Shown: positions 4,620-34,338 of the stretch, one piece after another | Position numbering within the stretch: position 1 is the first letter of the stretch | How the letters are laid out: every line of letters starts with the position of its first letter | Assembly: GCF_018531145.1 (NCBI RefSeq) | Contig: NZ_JAHDSZ010000001.1 | Coordinates: 310,001-374,000, forward strand | Reading direction: 5' to 3' | Source: Canibacter zhuwentaonis | Lineage (GTDB): Bacteria; Actinomycetota; Actinomycetes; Actinomycetales; Microbacteriaceae | DNA: 64,000 nucleotides | The notes under the pieces: generated by a model | Databases searched by the model: none | Told to the model about the DNA's origin: nothing | What the model saw: only the letters and a program-made list of their open reading frames with translations | Program-made: the position numbers and the translations under genes

Positions 4620-5659
4620 GCTGCGTTGCCGCGATACCCTAGTTTCACCAGTTCACGATTTATTTTATGCGCCCACAGCGGCCCGTTGTAGATAAATCCG
4701 CTGTATCCCTGCACGAGATGTGCTCCCGCAGCAAGGCGCTCTAAAACATCTTGCGCGCTGCTCACTCCGCCGGCCGCGATAATAGTGAAATCGCTCTCAG
4801 TGGGAACTGCCGCGCGTACCCGGCGTAAAACCTGCAGCGCCTTAGTGGCGAGCGGTTTACCTGATAAGCCGCCCGCTCCTATCGCTGAAATTTTAGCATC
4901 TGCAGTGCTTAGGTTATCTCGTGCAACGGTCGTGTTGGTAACAATAATGCCCCGCAGCTGTGCATCCAGCGCCAGCGTCACAATCTGCTCAATGTGCGTG
5001 TCGCTAAGATCGGGCGCTATTTTTAAGAGCACTGGGGTTGTGCCAGCCGCGCTTTGCACGCGCCGTACGAGTTTAGCGAGCGTGTTAAGTTGCTGCAGCT
5101 CACGTAATCCGGGAGTGTTGGGGCTGCTCACGTTAACCACTAGATAGTCGGCAAAAGGTGTCAAAAGCGTTGCGGAAAAAACATAGTCATCAGCTGCGTC
5201 TGCTAACGGGGTTATTTTACTTTTGCCGATATTAACCCCGATTACGGGGCGGTTGGGGCGTATTTTTGCTTTTGTAATATGCGATACGGCGGCAGCAGAT
5301 CCGCTGTTATTGAAGCCCATTCTATTGATCAGGGCGCTGTCTTTAACGAGCCGAAACAGGCGCGGTTTTGGGTTACCCGGTTGTGCGTGCATTGTGAGCG
5401 TGCCAATTTCAACGTGCCCAAAACCTAACAGCCCGAGTCCTGTAATCTGCGTTGCGTTCTTGTCAAACCCCGCAGCGAGTCCGAACGGGGTTGTAAACTC
5501 ACGCCCCAGCGCAACGGTACGCAAATTCTTGTGTGGGCGCAGGAACGGGCGCAGCGCAGCATCCGCCAGTGGCAGAGCTTTAATAACAGAGCTGGCAAGC
5601 AAGTGCGCAAACTCAGGATCGAGCCTGCGCAAAACCGTGTTAAAAAGTAGTTTATACAC
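4616..5659 (-). CDS. pyrD: Dihydroorotate dehydrogenase (quinone), class 2
   Basis: Oxidises dihydroorotate to orotate in pyrimidine synthesis and passes electrons to menaquinone. At 347 residues it has the class 2 form: an N-terminal membrane-associating helix pair (residues 1-45), then a FMN-binding TIM barrel. Visible marks are GLAAGFDKNA, the FMN/substrate loop NRMGFNNSG, VVNVSSPNTPG with the catalytic serine, and the terminal phosphate-binding GAHLVQGYSGFIYNGP. It is directly downstream of nrdR with a 1-base gap between start and stop, so the two are likely translated from one message. Confidence 0.97.
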   Translation of the reverse strand: MYKLLFNTVLRRLDPEFAHLLASSVIKALPLADAALRPFLRPHKNLRTVALGREFTTPFGLAAGFDKNATQITGLGLLGFGHVEIGTLTMHAQPGNPKPRLFRLVKDSALINRMGFNNSGSAAAVSHITKAKIRPNRPVIGVNIGKSKITPLADAADDYVFSATLLTPFADYLVVNVSSPNTPGLRELQQLNTLAKLVRRVQSAAGTTPVLLKIAPDLSDTHIEQIVTLALDAQLRGIIVTNTTVARDNLSTADAKISAIGAGGLSGKPLATKALQVLRRVRAAVPTESDFTIIAAGGVSSAQDVLERLAAGAHLVQGYSGFIYNGPLWAHKINRELVKLGYRGNAA

Positions 5660-5660
5660 G

Positions 5661-6119
5661 CTAATTACCTTCGTTATCGTCGTTTCTGAGTTTCAAAATG
5701 GCAGCCTCAAAGTCTTCCAGGGAGTCGAAGTTTTCGTACACGCTCGCAAATCGCAGGTATGCAACCCTGTCAAGTTTACTCAAGAACGGCAGCACGGCTT
5801 TGCCAACGTCGATCGCGTCAATCTGCGCGTTACCGAGAGCTTTTAGAGAGTCTTCAACGCGCTGCGCGAGTATTGCTAGTTCTGTGTCACCTACGGGTCG
5901 TCCCTGGCAGGCTTTGCGCACACCTGAAACAACTTTCTCACGGCTAAACTGTTCAACGAATCCGCCGCGTTTCACAACGTTCAGTACAATGGTTTCGGTT
6001 GTAGAAAAACGTTTTTTGCAATCGGGGCATTCCCGCCTACGTCGGATTGCGCGGCTTTCTTCTGTGCCGCGGCTGTCAATAACCTTTGATTCTATGCTGC
6101 TGCAAAAGGGGCACTGCAT
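5661..6119 (-). CDS. nrdR: Transcriptional repressor NrdR
   Basis: Represses ribonucleotide reductase genes in response to bound ATP/dATP. The 152-residue protein begins with a zinc ribbon formed by Cys3, Cys6, Cys31 and Cys34, followed by an ATP-cone domain (about residues 47-137) with [16 protein letters not shown]. Length and domain order match the family exactly. It lies between the methyltransferase-like gene at 6121 and pyrD. I see no ribonucleotide reductase gene or NrdR-box pair in the window, so its targets are elsewhere. Confidence 0.97.
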
Positions 6120-6120
6120 A

Positions 6121-7005
6121 CTATTTTCCTAATCTGTCTGTGTCGGTGCCAGTGAGGTTTAAGGCTCCGGGCTTGTCTGTGTCGGTACTAGCAAGGCTCA
6201 GTGCTCCGCGCCAGGCGTATTCACTAACAGCTTCTCTGATTTGCTGCCGGGTTGCTATAGCGTCGGCGTTAAATATTTGTGCGAGCGCGTCGCTTATCTG
6301 ACCGATTGTGAGCTCTTCGTCGCAGGCACCAAGGGGCGCGAGCGTTAGCGTATTCGCCTGTAAATGCCGTTGATAAGGTGTCGGCACTATCATGTTCAGC
6401 TGGCTGGCGGATTCATGCCCCGGCTCGTGAATGCGCTGCTCGAGCAGACCGCTGTTGTGAAGATACGGCGCGGATATCGCTTCAACGCGCACAACATTAC
6501 TGCCTGCTGTGGCTAGATTCTTTTGTAGTCGCAATGTTCCCAGTGACACACTGACAACATTGCGGCTCTTAAAATCGGCAAGATAGGCGCGTATTAGCTG
6601 CGCTGCCCGCTCGGTGTTAAGCAGAACACCTCCGTCACGCACCCACATTGCAGCGTACGCGACCGGCTCAAGGCGCTCACGCTCAACAATCCAGGCGGCG
6701 CTAACAATGCCCGTTGCGCAGCCTCTCTCAAGGCCGAGTGATGGCAGCGCGTTGTTCAAAGCTGCTGCTGACACACACTGTCCCAGTTGAAAAGTGCGGA
6801 TCATGGTCTTAAGCGCCACGCTCGCGTTAGAATCTGCCAGCGCAAACTTTGCCAGAACTTGCAACCCCTGCGTAATCTGCTGATACGCGGTTTTACCGAA
6901 CGTGTTAATAAGTGCGTGCTCGGTGAAATTAGCCGCAGATAGATCCGCCGCTAAAGCCTCCGCTACGGCAGTGACCGCAGCTTGCGATAACAGGCTTAAA
7001 GGCAT
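6121..7005 (-). CDS. DUF7059/DUF7782-type protein lacking its methyltransferase core
   Basis: A 294-residue reading frame. Residues about 14-100 resemble the N-terminal DUF7059 domain of a roughly 500-residue actinobacterial methyltransferase family: [20 protein letters not shown], then the [21 protein letters not shown] pattern. Residues about 102-290 resemble the post-catalytic part of the same family: [23 protein letters not shown], an [21 protein letters not shown] strand, and the terminal [20 protein letters not shown] domain. The SAM-binding GxGxG motif and the NPPF catalytic motif normally found between these parts are both absent. So either a structural remnant or a catalytically dead paralogue remains in frame. 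It ends in a 39-base tandem duplication. It is 9 bases downstream of the SDR gene and 1 base before nrdR. Family recall is from memory and should be checked. Confidence 0.65.
6135..6212. repeat. 39-base imperfect tandem duplication inside the 3' end of the DUF7059-type gene
   Basis: Two copies beginning TGTCTGTGTCGGT at 6135 and 6174, exactly 39 bases apart. In the protein they read [12 protein letters not shown] and [10 protein letters not shown] at the extreme C-terminus, beyond the conserved domain. The copies have diverged at several positions, so the duplication is not very recent. Confidence 0.8.
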
Positions 7006-7014
7006 TTACGCGAG

Positions 7015-7776
7015 CTATTTTTGAAAATCGGAGGTGTCTCCGACAAGGCGCGTGTTATCTGCTGGCACTGGCTCAACCGCAGCAGCCGCAACCTCCGCCG
7101 CGAACTCGGCAACATTGTAGAGCTTGCCAGCGCTTTCGCGCCGCGCTGCTATGGCGCCCGGGTTTGCGCGCTCGAGTAGTAGCGCTGTTACCGTGCCCTC
7201 TATCATATCGCCTGACACAACAACGAATTCTACGCCGACCGCTTTAAGAGCAGGGATTCTTTTGCGCAGCTCGTCTTCGCCAGCGCGTTTTGAGAGCGCA
7301 ACCGGCTCGTACTCCGGCATTGTCGGGTTAGTGTGAATGAAGTGAGCCTGGTGGCTCGTCACAAAAATAACGCGAGCTGCCGGTGCAAACAGGGGCTGCA
7401 AAGCCTCGAGCAGGCGCACCTGAGAGTCGCGGTTGAGCTGCATTGCGTAGTCTTCTGCCATGCCGCTCTCCATGCCACCAGAGGCGTTAAGAACAAGAAT
7501 ATCAAGCTCACCAAACTCTGTTTGTAGGATTTTTACAAGCTCTGCAACGGAGTCATCGTCAGTTATATCCGCTCCGATTGTCAATACTCTAGAGTCATGC
7601 TCTGCGCGCAACTGCGCAGCCAGTTTTTCCGCACGAGCAGCCTTGTTGCGGTAGTTGATTGCAACATCCGCGCCCGCAGCGGCGAAGTATTTTACAGTGT
7701 CAGCGCCAACACCGCGCGATGATCCTGTGACTAGTGCTCGTTTGCCGCGCAAGCTCCCCGGTTTTAGCGGATTCAT
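7015..7776 (-). CDS. Short-chain dehydrogenase/reductase family oxidoreductase
   Basis: A 253-residue Rossmann-fold protein. The dinucleotide-binding loop TGSSRGVG (residues 17-24) and the NASGG strand (NAG motif equivalent) identify the SDR family; the substrate is unknown. The catalytic region reads FVTSHQ then EYEPVALSKRAGE, so the tyrosine and lysine are separated by six residues rather than three; I believe the close actinobacterial homologues share this spacing, making a classical YxxxK mechanism doubtful. ATG is preceded by TAGGAG with a 7-base gap. The 78-base gap upstream toward lnt is AT-rich and probably holds a promoter for SDR, the DUF7059-type gene, nrdR and pyrD. Confidence 0.85.
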   Translation of the reverse strand: MNPLKPGSLRGKRALVTGSSRGVGADTVKYFAAAGADVAINYRNKAARAEKLAAQLRAEHDSRVLTIGADITDDDSVAELVKILQTEFGELDILVLNASGGMESGMAEDYAMQLNRDSQVRLLEALQPLFAPAARVIFVTSHQAHFIHTNPTMPEYEPVALSKRAGEDELRKRIPALKAVGVEFVVVSGDMIEGTVTALLLERANPGAIAARRESAGKLYNVAEFAAEVAAAAVEPVPADNTRLVGDTSDFQK

Positions 7777-7854
7777 AGTGGTAACTCCTAGTAGATAATT
7801 TGTGCTATATCTTTTGCTATAACTCTAGTGGAAAAACCCTAAAAAATGCGGTAT

Positions 7855-9447
7855 TTATGGTGCTGTGGATTTATTTTTTCTGCTGTGCATAAAAGATGCG
7901 CAGCCTGCTAGAAACAGCCCGAGCAGCCCGGAGCATATCCAGAATCCGGCAATTATGTGACCCAGCTGTGCTGCCGGGGTTATGCCGGTTGTGCGCTGCA
8001 ACTCGACCACTGCCCCGCCGCTCTCGTGCCAGAAAATAAGCTCTGTGAGTTTTCCCGTGTCCGGCGCTATAACACCGCTCGGACCGCGTGTGGAAACGGC
8101 AACCGTGTAGCGACCGGTACTCAGAGATTGTAGCCTGGCGAGCGCTAACTGTTGCGCAGCCTGATCCGCGGATCCGAAATCCGCATTGTTTGTCTGGGTG
8201 ATAACGTATTCTGCGCCGGAAGCGAGCATTAACCGTTGGTGATTGTCGTAAATCATATCGTAACAGATCGCAATTCCAGCGGTTGAACTGCCAATTTGCA
8301 TAACCGAGTCTGTAACCCCAGGAGTGTATTCGAGGTTAATTAATTTCACCAGCTCGGGCGCAATTTTAGTAAAAAAGTCACGGTGAGGCATATACTCAGC
8401 AAAAGGCACCGGGTATTTTTTATCGTAGCGCTCTACAACTTGCCCGGACTCTGCTATTAGCAGCGCAGAATTGGTGTAAAAATCTGTGCCGTTGGCGGCA
8501 GTGTTGGGCAGCACCGCTCCGGCAAGCACGGGGGCTTTAGCGCGCTTTGCAAGCTCGGTAATACGCGTTCTGTTGCGGTAGTTGTCAATGAGCGCATATT
8601 CTGCGGCGTTTTCGGGAAAAACAATCATATCAAGCTGCTGCTGAGTGTTGTCAAGCAGAGTGTTTGCCTCTTGCAGGTGGGCTTTTATGATGTCGCCGTT
8701 TTTGCGGTTATCGAATATTCCAGCGGCAACATTGCCCTGCACAATCCCCGCGCGCACTGGCTCGCCCACGTGCGGGAGTGTGATTTTAGGCAGCAGCAGA
8801 GTTGCGCACACAACGGCCGTTGCTGTTAAAGCCGTAAGTACTGCCGCGCTGCTGCTGCGCCGTTTTGCTGCGCCTTTTCGGTGGCAGTGCCAGGCCGCAA
8901 CCGGCAGCACCGCAACGAGCGTTACAAGCGCTGTGCACCCGGTAATTCCAAGGTAAGAAACCAGTTTTGCAAAGGGCGATTCGAGCAGTACCGCGCTTGT
9001 GCGAGCCCAGGCGAATCCGCCGTATGGAATGCTTGAAGCGAGCGTTTCGCGCACCACCCACAGCCCGGTAACGCTCAGCGTCTGCGCCGAAATTAGTGCG
9101 TGCCGGTTGTGCAACAGTGAGATTCTGGGCAGCGAGTTGACTGTGAACGTGGCAGCGGCGGCGAATAACACCGTCCACGCTATCATAACCGAGCTAAGCG
9201 CTAGCCACGGCACAATTCCCAAGTAGAAAGTGAGCCACTCAATGTGTGCCAGCCAGAAAGACGCCCCAAAGACGCTCCCGATTAAAGCAGCGGCGACCGG
9301 TTTTAACCCCCAGAAGCTAAGGGTAAAAATGGTTAGCGCGGGAATGCCCAGATACCAGATGCCAATGTCTGGCATGGCGGCATCGAGCATCAGCCCCGCA
9401 CCCGAGGCGGCCGCTATCCGCAGTAAAAAAAGCCGTTTTTTTACCAT
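7855..9447 (-). CDS. lnt: Apolipoprotein N-acyltransferase
   Basis: Adds the third acyl chain to the N-terminal cysteine of lipoproteins at the outer face of the cytoplasmic membrane. The 530-residue protein has an N-terminal bundle of about six to seven membrane helices (residues 5-220), then a nitrilase-like domain. The catalytic triad is visible as Glu279 (VFPEN), Lys343/344 (YDKKYPVPFAEY) and Cys395 (AICYD), with a final membrane helix near the C-terminus. It abuts the helicase gene with no gap. Likely substrates in this window include CtaC and the FKBP-like protein at 14584, both of which carry a lipobox. Confidence 0.95.
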   Translation of the reverse strand: MVKKRLFLLRIAAASGAGLMLDAAMPDIGIWYLGIPALTIFTLSFWGLKPVAAALIGSVFGASFWLAHIEWLTFYLGIVPWLALSSVMIAWTVLFAAAATFTVNSLPRISLLHNRHALISAQTLSVTGLWVVRETLASSIPYGGFAWARTSAVLLESPFAKLVSYLGITGCTALVTLVAVLPVAAWHCHRKGAAKRRSSSAAVLTALTATAVVCATLLLPKITLPHVGEPVRAGIVQGNVAAGIFDNRKNGDIIKAHLQEANTLLDNTQQQLDMIVFPENAAEYALIDNYRNRTRITELAKRAKAPVLAGAVLPNTAANGTDFYTNSALLIAESGQVVERYDKKYPVPFAEYMPHRDFFTKIAPELVKLINLEYTPGVTDSVMQIGSSTAGIAICYDMIYDNHQRLMLASGAEYVITQTNNADFGSADQAAQQLALARLQSLSTGRYTVAVSTRGPSGVIAPDTGKLTELIFWHESGGAVVELQRTTGITPAAQLGHIIAGFWICSGLLGLFLAGCASFMHSRKNKSTAP

Positions 9448-31634: not shown

Positions 31635-33008
31635 TTAATCTCCGATAATTTCGCGAATCCTGCGCAACCGCGCCATAACCTCCGCCTCATTACCGTGCGG
31701 CGTGGGCGCGTAGTAGTGTATGCCGCGCAGAGTATCTGGTAAATACTGCTGCCTCACAATCGCGCTCCTATTGGCGTGCGGATACCTGTACCCAACAGCG
31801 TGACCGAGCTTGCGCGCGCCGGGATAGTGCCCGTCACGCAAATGCGCGGGTATCTGCCCGGTCCTGCCGCTTTTAACATCCGCTATTGCCGTGTCAATCG
31901 CGCTGATTACCGCGTTCGATTTGGGCGCGAGAGCAAGATAGATGGTCGCTTCGGCGAGCGGGATCCGCGCTTCGGGCAGCCCGATTAGCTGCGCCGCCTC
32001 TGCTGCTGCGCTTGCAATTAGGAGGGCTTGCGGATCCGCCATACCAATATCTTCTGCCGCGTGCACAATCAAGCGCCGTGCGATAAAGCGCGGATCTTCG
32101 CCCGCAACTATCATGCGGGCCAGATAGTGCAGCGCGGCATCCGGATTGGAGCCGCGAATCGACTTAATAAAAGCGCTTATCACATCGTAGTGCTGGTCGC
32201 CGTTTTTGTCGTATCGCAGCAGCGCGCGGTCAACCACGGAACTGACGTGCTCTGCTGTTATTGTTGCGGATTTATTTGTCCGCGTTGCTGGGTCGCCGGT
32301 GGTTGTTGCAGGGTTATCGTCCGCTAGCGTGCTATCGGCGCTGGCCAGTACGGTGTTGCTCACCGCCTCAAGAGAGGTTAGCGCGCGGCGTGCGTCACCA
32401 GCTGACAGCTGCACAATTGCGGCGAGCGCCTCAGGCGTCAGTCGCACGCTGTCAGCGAGCCCGGTAGGTGAGCTCACAGCGCGGTTAATGAGGGTTGCTA
32501 AATCAGTGTCGGTGAGCGGTTGTAGTGTGAGCTGCAGCGATCGCGAGAGCAGCGGACCAATAACAGCAAAAGAGGGGTTTTCTGTTGTTGCGGCAATTAG
32601 CGTCACCCAGCCGTTTTCGACTCCGGGCAAAAGGGCATCTTGCTGCGACTTGGAGAAGCGGTGAATTTCGTCTAAAAACAGCACCGTTTGCACGCTGAAC
32701 ATATCCCGCTCGGTAAGCGCTGTTTGCATTACATCGCGGACATCTTTGATGCCCGCAGTAACGGCCGAGAGCTCAACAAACTTACGACCGCTGGATTGCG
32801 TGAGAGCCTGCGCGATTGTGGTTTTGCCGGTGCCCGGCGGACCCCAGAGAATAACAGATACTGCGCGGGATGTATCCGCTTCCAGCTGGCGGAGCGGACT
32901 TCCCGGTCGCAGAAGGTGCTGCTGGCCCACAATCTCGTCGAGCGATCGCGGGCGCATCCGCACGGCGAGAGGAGCTGTGGCGAGTGTGCTAAGCGCTGCT
33001 GTGTTCAT
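31635..33008 (-). CDS. rarA: Replication-associated recombination protein A (MgsA/WRNIP1 type AAA ATPase)
   Basis: AAA ATPase of the clamp-loader family that acts at stalled replication forks. The 457-residue protein has Walker A GPPGTGKTTIAQAL, Walker B VLFLDEIHRFSK, sensor 1 (AATTENPSF) and the tetramerisation domain with YDKNGDQHYDVISAFIKSIRGSNPDAALHYLARM. Between the ATPase lid and that domain is an extra stretch made of three 7-residue repeats (NPATTTG, DPATRTN, KSATITA), not expected in the family. It is upstream of rpsD on the same strand. Confidence 0.95.
   Translation of the reverse strand: MNTAALSTLATAPLAVRMRPRSLDEIVGQQHLLRPGSPLRQLEADTSRAVSVILWGPPGTGKTTIAQALTQSSGRKFVELSAVTAGIKDVRDVMQTALTERDMFSVQTVLFLDEIHRFSKSQQDALLPGVENGWVTLIAATTENPSFAVIGPLLSRSLQLTLQPLTDTDLATLINRAVSSPTGLADSVRLTPEALAAIVQLSAGDARRALTSLEAVSNTVLASADSTLADDNPATTTGDPATRTNKSATITAEHVSSVVDRALLRYDKNGDQHYDVISAFIKSIRGSNPDAALHYLARMIVAGEDPRFIARRLIVHAAEDIGMADPQALLIASAAAEAAQLIGLPEARIPLAEATIYLALAPKSNAVISAIDTAIADVKSGRTGQIPAHLRDGHYPGARKLGHAVGYRYPHANRSAIVRQQYLPDTLRGIHYYAPTPHGNEAEVMARLRRIREIIGD
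32253..32315. repeat. Three imperfect 21-base tandem repeats inside rarA
   Basis: Units at 32253-32273, 32274-32294 and 32295-32315 each contain GTTGC at the same spot (spaced 21 bases). On the minus strand they encode NPATTTG, DPATRTN and KSATITA. They lie in the loop between two conserved domains. Confidence 0.75.
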
Positions 33009-33045
33009 TAAAACAATAATAGCGGTGGCTTTGCTGTCAGGCTGT

Positions 33046-33051
33046 TATAAT
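33046..33051 (+). promoter_or_regulatory. Extended -10 promoter of the DUF349 gene
   Basis: TATAAT preceded by TGT reads TGTTATAAT, an extended -10 element (TG at 33043-33044). No good -35 is seen at the proper distance, which extended -10 promoters can tolerate. A start near 33058 would leave a leader of about 54 bases. Confidence 0.6.
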
Positions 33052-33111
33052 TACTTGTAACTGTTAAGAACGCAGTGTTACTAGCGCAACTCATTTATGG
33101 AAAGAGCGAAA

Positions 33112-34338
33112 TTGACTGAAACTAACCAGGGTCGTTGGGGTCGTGTAGACGCAGACGGCACAGTTTATGTGAAAGACAACGGTGAAGAGCGTGAAGTTGG
33201 CCAGTTTTCAGATGGCACTCCCGAAGAAGCGCTTGCGTTGTACGAGCGTCGCTATGCGGATTTGCAGGGCGAGGTGACCCTGCTCGAAGCTCGTATTGCG
33301 AAGGGAACAGCGGATGCGCAGGTGGCGAAAACGGTTGAGAAACTAGCCGGGAAGCTTGTTGCGCCGCACGCTGTTGGTGATCTTGAAGCGCTGCGCAAGC
33401 GGGTTCATGCGCTGTCTGAAAAGGCTCAGGAGTTTGCCACGAAACAGCGTGAGAAACGCGAGCAGGAGCGGGCGGTTGCGTTCCAGGAGCGTGAGGCAAT
33501 TGTTGTGGCAGCGGAGCAGATTGCACAGCGCGTTAATAACGGCGAGAAGCTGCAGTGGAACGACACTTCTAAGATTATGCAGGGGCTGTTTGAAAAGTGG
33601 CAGACGCACCAGAGCACTAGCGCACACCTGCCGAAGTCGCAGGCTGATCAGCTTTGGAAGCGCTTCCGCGACGCTAGAAAAGTTTTTGACAAAGCTAAGA
33701 GCGAGTATTTTGCAAAAACAGAAGCAAAGTTTAAGCTCGCTCGTGAAGCCAAAGAGAACCTGGTTAAACAGGCTGCAGCGCTTGCTGGCAGCGGAGGTGA
33801 CGGGGTTAAAAAGTACCGTGTACTGCTTGATGAGTGGAAAAAAGTAGGCAGCGCGGGTCGTAAATACGAAGACAAGCTGTGGGCTAAGTTCAAAGCGGCC
33901 GGTGACATTGTTTACAACGCTTTAAAAGAAGAGATGGCTGTTACTGACGAAGAGTTCAAGCAGAATCTTGTGTGCAAAGAAGAGTTGCTGGCGGAAGCGG
34001 AAACCTTGCTCAGTGAGTCAAACCACAAGAAGGCGCGTAAGGCTCTGAGCGAATACCAGATGAAATGGGATGAAATTGGTCGTGTGCCGCGGGATCAGGT
34101 GCGTGAGGTTGAGGCGCGGATGCGTAAAATCGAAGCTCACGTGAAAAAACTTGAGGATGATTACTGGCAGGCAACAGATCCTGAGCCGGCTGCCCGCACA
34201 GAGGGGCTGAGCAAACAGCTGAGCGAGTCAATAGCTCAGCTTGAAGCTGAGCTTGTGAACGCGCCGACCAATAAAAAAGCGGCTCTTGAAGAGAAGCTTA
34301 AAACTCAGCGCGAGTGGTTGGCGGCTATTACTCGGTAA
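33112..34338 (+). CDS. DUF349 protein
   Basis: A largely helical, charged protein of unknown function with repeated DUF349 units (visible as LWKRFRDARKVFDKAK and LWAKFKAAGDIVYNALK, about 75 residues apart). I choose the TTG at 33112, giving 408 residues, because GGAAAGAG lies just upstream and homologues begin at the corresponding T-E-T; an ATG at 33097 has no ribosome binding site. The N-terminal WGRVDADGTVYV block is a family mark. It is next to rarA (divergent) and rel, a neighbourhood kept in other actinobacteria. Confidence 0.88.
   Translation: MTETNQGRWGRVDADGTVYVKDNGEEREVGQFSDGTPEEALALYERRYADLQGEVTLLEARIAKGTADAQVAKTVEKLAGKLVAPHAVGDLEALRKRVHALSEKAQEFATKQREKREQERAVAFQEREAIVVAAEQIAQRVNNGEKLQWNDTSKIMQGLFEKWQTHQSTSAHLPKSQADQLWKRFRDARKVFDKAKSEYFAKTEAKFKLAREAKENLVKQAAALAGSGGDGVKKYRVLLDEWKKVGSAGRKYEDKLWAKFKAAGDIVYNALKEEMAVTDEEFKQNLVCKEELLAEAETLLSESNHKKARKALSEYQMKWDEIGRVPRDQVREVEARMRKIEAHVKKLEDDYWQATDPEPAARTEGLSKQLSESIAQLEAELVNAPTNKKAALEEKLKTQREWLAAITR

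Follow-up and report, generated by a model that had tools for sequence, protein, structure and literature searches.

A core-less DUF7059 methyltransferase remnant in Canibacter zhuwentaonis, probably a dead enzyme of genome reduction

Background

What becomes of an enzyme gene when its catalytic core is cut out while the reading frame stays open? Such a gene is present in Canibacter zhuwentaonis. The window analysed here is a stretch of 64,000 nucleotides, positions 310001-374000 of contig 12 (477 kb), in a genome of 1.41 Mb that is rated 100% complete (G000). At 6121-7005 on its minus strand lies a 294-aa frame, open from an ATG start, exactly as an initial annotation made from the sequence alone had described it. 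That annotation took the frame for the two flanking parts of a methyltransferase of about 500 residues, joined by a clean in-frame deletion, and saw in it a hint of a retained non-catalytic role rather than a pseudogene. Is the protein kept for a role of its own, or is it the remnant of a dead enzyme in a shrinking genome? To answer this, the frame was compared with the intact genes at the same locus, with the wider family, with predicted structures and with the neighbouring genes.

Results

Domain content of the remnant and of the intact family

DUF7059 (PF23186) is the sole Pfam match above cut-off in the 294-aa protein. It covers residues 24-103 and scores 42.2 bits, where the cut-off is 27 (E 9e-11). 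The N-terminal domain, residues 1-101 (6703..7005, minus strand), is essentially complete; this fragment alone matches profile positions 1-75 of 85 with E 2.3e-11, and it is helical in the manner of AerE, although its VIA match to AerE residues 2-101 is weak (Z 4.4). No methyltransferase profile and no DUF7782 profile of Pfam matches the protein at E<=1. The profiles therefore bear out the DUF7059 end and the missing methyltransferase domain of the initial annotation, while the DUF7782 end that it proposed is not recovered in this way. Neither GxGxG nor NPPF was found when the 294 residues were searched by eye, so the absence of the SAM-binding glycine loop and of the NPPF motif stands as claimed. 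PqqD (PF05402) stays below its cut-off of 23.4 bits, scoring 11.4 and 13.8 (E 0.078-0.44). NCBIfam gave no match to the window protein, a PDB sequence search gave nothing at E<=1, and a phage and plasmid search gave no match.

The intact gene can be seen in three congeners. The same-locus proteins of Canibacter oris DSM 27064 (G001), Canibacter zhoujuaniae ZJ955 (G002) and Leucobacter sp. OH1287 (G004) have 573, 512 and 592 aa, and all carry DUF7059 plus MTS. The homologues in the genus are thus full-length members of the family and not unrelated proteins of about 300 residues. A fourth congener (G003) is treated below. In profile searches both DUF7059 and MTS match 28 of 28 family members. 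Among 14 control genomes, PF23186 has matches in Corynebacterium glutamicum and Thermus composti, one of them above the cut-off. DUF7782 matches 19 of the 28, and none of the window protein and the three congeners. In the remnant the DUF7782 region is aligned, its first ~20 residues falling within the second of the two deletions described below, and the DUF7782 of other members maps onto a PqqD-like region. The PqqD profile itself is found at E<=0.01 in 3 of the 28. NPPF occurs at 37 of the 38 named loci, the exception (L073) ending at a contig edge, and at 36 of the 38 it is accompanied by an upstream glycine motif. Repeats of the window, G001, G002 and G004 genes (L001/L003/L004/L010/L031-L034) were dropped before these counts.

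Some irregular loci were seen among the relatives. The frame at L056 of Leucobacter chromiireducens LYC-2, 356 aa long, has NPPF and the C part but lacks the glycine loop, probably owing to an upstream frameshift. At L007 (G012) and at G014:C11:262348-263989 the N part is in another frame than the C part, by frameshifts or sequencing errors; L007, broken between the two parts, was left out of alignments A2/A3.

Two in-frame deletions

In the G001 and G002 proteins, BLAST pairs residues 315-571 with window residues 101/103-272/275. In alignment, residues 1-101 of the remnant go with the congener N-termini and residues 102-273 with their C-terminal ~200 residues. The reading of the frame as flanking parts holds, as its two ends correspond to the N-terminal ~97 and the C-terminal ~200 residues of same-locus proteins of 512-592 aa, with a core of ~213 aa missing in frame.

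The first joint is at residue 101/102 (6702..6703, minus strand), within the range of residues 98-103 proposed before. About 213 aa (639 nt, G002 ~98-310) are absent there. According to the alignment and the G002 model, these contain strands 97-132, Rossmann strands beta1-beta5, the glycine loop and NPPF. There is also a second loss that the initial annotation did not mention. At residue 181/182 (6462..6463, minus strand) about 33 aa (99 nt, G002 388-420) are absent, which in the G002 model hold the helices 390-408 and 412-417. G002 numbering serves as reference, and the ends of both deletions are uncertain by a few residues. Both losses leave their flanking sides in one frame. As for the register around the first joint, alignment A3 (MAFFT) set window residues 92-101 on motif I, and the register of the DUF7059 profile and the pairwise alignments was taken instead. 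Alignment A4, with 57 rows of fragments, was left unused since it put the N fragments in the wrong place.

Is the first deletion a clean excision? AlphaFold2 models the intact G002 protein with pLDDT 92.4 and pTM 0.91. The model has a helical N-domain to ~96, then strands 97-132, the Rossmann strands 167-173, 188-195, 216-220, 232-237 and 275-290 (the strand numbers are our own assignment), beta6 (311-321) and beta7 (359-371) with two helices between them, and, from ~378 on, a C-terminal domain. In the remnant, residues 102-165 (6511..6702, minus strand) correspond to beta6, the helices and beta7, with the YAxMWxRDGG motif kept. These strands are orphans: they are left without beta1-beta5, so that the deletion passes through the catalytic domain instead of removing it whole. 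The deletion proposed at about 200 residues is thus confirmed as in-frame and measured at ~213, but it is not clean. In the same way, the segment after the joint was described as the one that follows the catalytic domain, which is only partly true, as it opens with beta6 and beta7 of the methyltransferase fold itself.

Predicted structure of the remnant

The remnant is modelled with mean pLDDT 79.6 and pTM 0.41. Confidence falls below 50 at 94-102, 174-180 and 275-294, that is, at both joints and the tail, while block pLDDT is mostly 83-97 in both remaining domains. AlphaFold is insensitive to deletions, and residues 92-101 of this model are unreliable because it used A3. The core that AerE/PoyE-type methylation of Asn side chains would need is absent from the window protein, having been deleted. 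With the SAM site and the core gone, the remnant should be incapable of methylation.

The C-terminal domain, residues 178-277 (6175..6474, minus strand), is the DUF7782 region of other members. At the level of the model it contains a winged helix with a three-stranded sheet and resembles PqqD and the RiPP recognition elements (RRE). VIA gives Z 10.4 for 6jx3, 9.8 for TbiB1 and 9.6 for PqqD (5sxy), with rmsd 2.3-3.2 over 84-89 residues, and the Foldseek matches of the domain to PqqD-like folds have TMt 0.71-0.73 and E 0.007-0.8. With the window model, Foldseek gave no row at E<=0.001, and its top matches by E were chains of Rv2067c with TM 0.17-0.24. Because GdmN (VIA Z 8.9) and several unrelated winged-helix domains (Z 5-6) match the window model too, the PqqD likeness is one of fold and not a proof of kinship.

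Past the end of the family alignment the protein has a C-terminal extension of ~21 residues (6121..6186, minus strand). This tail contains a 13-nt exact repeat, ACCGACACAGACA, with a spacing of 39 nt. It is possibly a small duplication, or possibly the result of read-through into former intergenic sequence after the loss of hisD. Elsewhere in the window, GC skew reaches +0.152 at 32001-34000 and is mostly slightly negative in the rest.

The locus in the genus

The gene order in G001, G002 and G004 is pyrD/nrdR/hisD/methyltransferase/SDR/Lnt, the names being checked by profile. The window has the same order minus hisD, with a short methyltransferase gene. The stretch between the SDR gene and nrdR is about 0.9 kb long here and about 2.9 kb in C. 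zhoujuaniae. The remnant thus occupies the orthologous site of the three congeners, between the genes for SDR and NrdR. Upstream of it is the SDR oxidoreductase (PRK07806-like; 7015..7776, minus strand), a neighbour kept in five of five genus genomes. On the other side it adjoins the profile-named nrdR (5661..6119, minus strand), from which it is separated in the congeners by hisD. The stop codon TAG of the remnant stands 1 nt ahead of the nrdR ATG, which agrees with the tight operon claimed earlier, and a candidate ribosome-binding site of nrdR, AGGAAAA (6124..6130, minus strand), lies inside the last codons of the remnant. In G001, G002 and G004 the last base of the hisD frame (identified by TIGR00069 in G002) is the first base of nrdR. 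A consensus scan for promoter-like sites on the minus strand found none in 5600-7900; such scans are weak evidence.

A genome search found no hisD in the window genome. Of the five genus genomes, G000 and G003 have neither hisD nor hisG and the remaining three have both, and the loss of these two genes suggests that G000 is a histidine auxotroph. The methyltransferase gene is absent in G003 as well as hisD and hisG. There 32 bp separate the SDR stop from the start of nrdR, with neither hisD nor the methyltransferase gene between them, both flanks being on one contig. G003 is 91% complete. Its rpoB (L096, G003:C4:2963-6278) is split over two frames of 379 and 844 aa, a sign of an error in the assembly or sequencing of G003.

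Did the window and G003 lineages lose the enzyme together? A concatenate of four genes gave an unresolved tree with supports of 22, 44 and 50. With six genes (3353 columns) the window and G003 are joined with a weak ultrafast bootstrap of 69%. The AU p values are 0.62 for the window with G003, 0.31 with G001, 0.083 with G002 and 0.005 with G004. The best tree pairs the window with G003 and the pairing with G001 is not rejected, so a loss shared by the two lineages is possible.

Distribution of intact and core-less members

The intact protein was searched against 299 Microbacteriaceae genomes with a threshold of E<=1e-4, and 241 of them have a match. Among the 22 listed genomes of the family smaller than 2.0 Mb, the only strong full-length matches are the three congeners (G001, G002, G004). 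Six others have weak matches (9e-5 to 4e-9), which are probably other methyltransferases; 12 have none, four of these being 75-83% complete; and one is the window genome. A further 38 no-match genomes fall outside this size count.

Are there other proteins that lost the core? A query spanning the joint (window residues 40-165) was searched against 396 genomes of the order at E<=1e-6 and found matches in 290. Among the matches listed there is no other core-less member, and all other frames have at least 504 aa; in a few (e.g. G218, G620) the alignment passes the joint by as much as ~35 residues, and their frames have 552-613 aa. Nor was a core-less member seen among the 38 named loci, which include the contig-cut L073 and the short L056 with its NPPF.

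Rate of evolution and conservation

If the gene is decaying, its sequence may be expected to evolve faster than that of its neighbours. The tree of five taxa was fixed, and the length of the window tip was expressed as a fraction of total tree length, with 40 bootstraps for each gene. Its share is 0.206 for the C part of the remnant (5-95% 0.151-0.257) and 0.280 for the N part (5-95% 0.209-0.356), as against 0.291 for pyrD, 0.266 for nrdR, 0.242 for SDR, 0.224 for rpoC and 0.215 for rpoB. Identity in the C part is 31-44% over the five compared taxa, and the relatives are too distant for dN/dS.

Conserved columns were defined for each of the 29 compared proteins from the other 28. At the 90% threshold the window keeps 26 of 30 columns of the C part, and the congeners keep 29 of 34, 30 of 33 and 28 of 33. 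The four residues lost include the DG[ED]L glycine, in whose place the window has Glu at residue 230. At the 75% threshold the window keeps 37 of 64, the lowest of the 29 proteins, and the congeners are next lowest with 39 of 60, 38 of 59 and 38 of 62.

The codon-usage score of the remnant is 0.148. Other frames of the window with 250 codons or more were picked mechanically for comparison; these 36 score 0.193 (sd 0.041), three of them lower than the remnant, and all five other frames of the ORF score negative. In short, neither a broken frame nor odd codon usage nor rate acceleration was found in the remnant. As there is no acceleration, codon usage is gene-like and conserved residues are kept, either the core was lost recently or constraint continues. 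A remnant that had evolved neutrally over much of this long branch would be expected to be in a worse state. If unconstrained residues change at least four times faster, the tip shares suggest, by a calculation made by hand, that the remnant has been unconstrained for at most about one tenth of the window branch.

Discussion

How can an enzyme without its core keep an open frame? We judge it rather probable that the protein is what remains of a SAM-dependent N-methyltransferase, catalytically dead and without an essential role of its own, in a Canibacter lineage whose genome has been reduced. Two in-frame deletions have taken out the SAM-binding and catalytic core of a protein with an AerE/GenN-like predicted fold and a PqqD/RRE-like C-domain. 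The locus itself is eroding, as the adjacent hisD has been lost and hisG too, and congener G003 is minus both neighbouring genes. The frame may still be open since the core deletion is young on the window branch. It may also be open since the operon of SDR, remnant, nrdR and pyrD tolerates in-frame cuts, while frame-breaking ones would be polar. Operon polarity explains the open frame and not the conservation of residues; a recent event or a residual binding role explains both. Against the explanation stands that the remnant evolves no faster than its neighbours, which demands a recent deletion or continued selection. Most likely, this is a gene on its way to loss whose remaining ends are reasonably well preserved.

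One competing reading is a retained non-catalytic protein, in which the N-domain and the PqqD/RRE-like domain would still bind the old substrate as a chaperone, decoy or scaffold. The unaccelerated rate relative to the control genes speaks for it, as does the keeping of conserved residues near the congener level, YAxMWxRDGG included. Both remaining domains are predicted with good block pLDDT, and the fold of the C-domain resembles stand-alone PqqD, a known peptide-binding fold. Against it, the core deletion does not respect the domain borders and leaves beta6 and beta7 without their sheet, and the second one takes two helices linking to the PqqD-like domain. Among the matches listed from the 396 genomes of the order no second protein of this kind is found, congener G003 lives without the gene, and at the 75% threshold the window ranks last among the 29 proteins in the conserved columns kept in the C part. 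We therefore regard this reading as not very likely. The initial annotation was right about the in-frame loss of the core, and the frame, codon usage and rate do not mark a decayed pseudogene; the retained role of which it saw a hint is one of several readings. A kept non-catalytic protein is possible, but we do not prefer it to a remnant that genome reduction left in frame a short time ago.

A more specific form of that idea, which we consider unlikely, is that in-frame excision of the core made a functional stand-alone binder, with an AerE-like substrate-holding N-domain and a PqqD/RRE-like domain, kept by selection. Its task would be to bind, shield or present what the enzyme used to methylate, or to regulate its operon partners in nrdR-pyrD. 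If true, the conversion of an enzyme to an adaptor would be caught in the act.

Could the polypeptide be irrelevant altogether? As a sub-form of the dead-enzyme explanation, the frame might serve purely as an operon spacer that lets ribosomes reach nrdR-pyrD. This is in keeping with the 1-nt gap from stop to start and the candidate ribosome-binding site inside the end of the ORF, with both internal deletions being in frame, and with the one-base overlap of hisD and nrdR in three congeners. But a spacer has no need of amino-acid conservation near the congener level, and it is dispensable, since in G003 nrdR follows the SDR stop after 32 bp. It is improbable that the frame is nothing but a spacer.

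An assembly or consensus artefact, with an intact gene in the true genome, is very improbable. The analysis covered a single genome of the species, which leaves some room for it; but the gene lies inside a 477-kb contig, hisG is missing too, and two separate in-frame losses accompany the loss of hisD in a sequence that has diverged from all congeners. A mis-assembly with two clean in-frame joints would be unlikely. It is scarcely credible that a separate gene gives the catalytic core in trans: the stand-alone 221-aa MTS protein at L097:1336-2001 (G000:C12, outside the window) is closest to the lost core, but the core query finds it with just E 1.9e-5 (32% over 96 aa), it looks like an independent enzyme because its MTS domain is complete (PF05175 positions 2-169 of 170), and the only other core-like match in the genome is a UbiE/MenG-family protein (E 0.0087).

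The genus shows a series of states at one locus, namely enzyme with hisD in three species, a core-less gene without hisD in the window, and nothing in G003. The series is a usable natural case of a gene vanishing in genome reduction, in which one may ask whether in-frame intermediates are passive or kept. A literature search on in-frame methyltransferase deletion in genome reduction found nothing relevant, and searches on the names DUF7059 and DUF7782, on RRE-methyltransferase and on Canibacter zhoujuaniae found no papers in the collection searched.

Comparison with known systems

The closest relatives of the remnant are the DUF7059-MTS-DUF7782 methyltransferases of Micrococcales. They share with it the DUF7059 domain, the locus, the YAxxWxRDGG motif and the order of the C-terminal domains. 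They keep the SAM loop, NPPF and beta1-beta5, whereas the remnant is without all of these and has 294 aa against 512-592.

What do the intact enzymes resemble? The intact G002 model matches the gentamicin methyltransferase structures 5tyq, 5u0n, 5u18 and 5u4t, which we take to be GenN, with Z 27.5 (308 aligned, rmsd 3.2). Its VIA match to AerE (7rc2-7rc6) has Z 28.0 (349 aligned, rmsd 3.9), and the next folds have Z 17.6 and lower. The matches stop at residue 383 of the G002 model for AerE and at 402 for the gentamicin enzyme, before the PqqD-like C-domain. AerE puts methyl groups on Asn amides of a RiPP, with the precursor bound in an extended form, according to the consulted parts of PMC11285071. 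From these folds we infer that the intact members are peptide or protein N-methyltransferases. Compared with AerE and the gentamicin methyltransferase, the remnant lacks everything catalytic.

For the C-terminal domain, PqqD and the RREs (5sxy, TbiB1 5v1u/5v1v, lasso B1 6jx3) have a fold like that of remnant residues ~178-277, with Pfam PqqD below threshold only. VIA also matches the remnant C-domain with the C-domains of two kinds of protein methyltransferase, those of Rickettsia PKMT1/2 (Z 6.9-8.6, PKMT2 8.6) and of M. tuberculosis Rv2067c (Z 8.3). Rv2067c consists of a catalytic domain and a CTD of ~100 residues, as given in the consulted parts of PMC10739865, which describe dimerisation inserts in its catalytic domain and mention no DUF7059; the remnant has no catalytic domain.

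In the widespread DUF7059/DUF7782 family the C-terminal domain, labelled DUF so far, is thus predicted from models to be PqqD/RRE-like, as seen also in L035/L036/L037. This gives a first structural guess for a family known by two DUF names, and as the intact members look AerE/GenN-like with a PqqD/RRE-like C-domain, a peptide or protein substrate becomes testable. The remnant itself is not a new kind of system but a derivative of this known family in a transition state.
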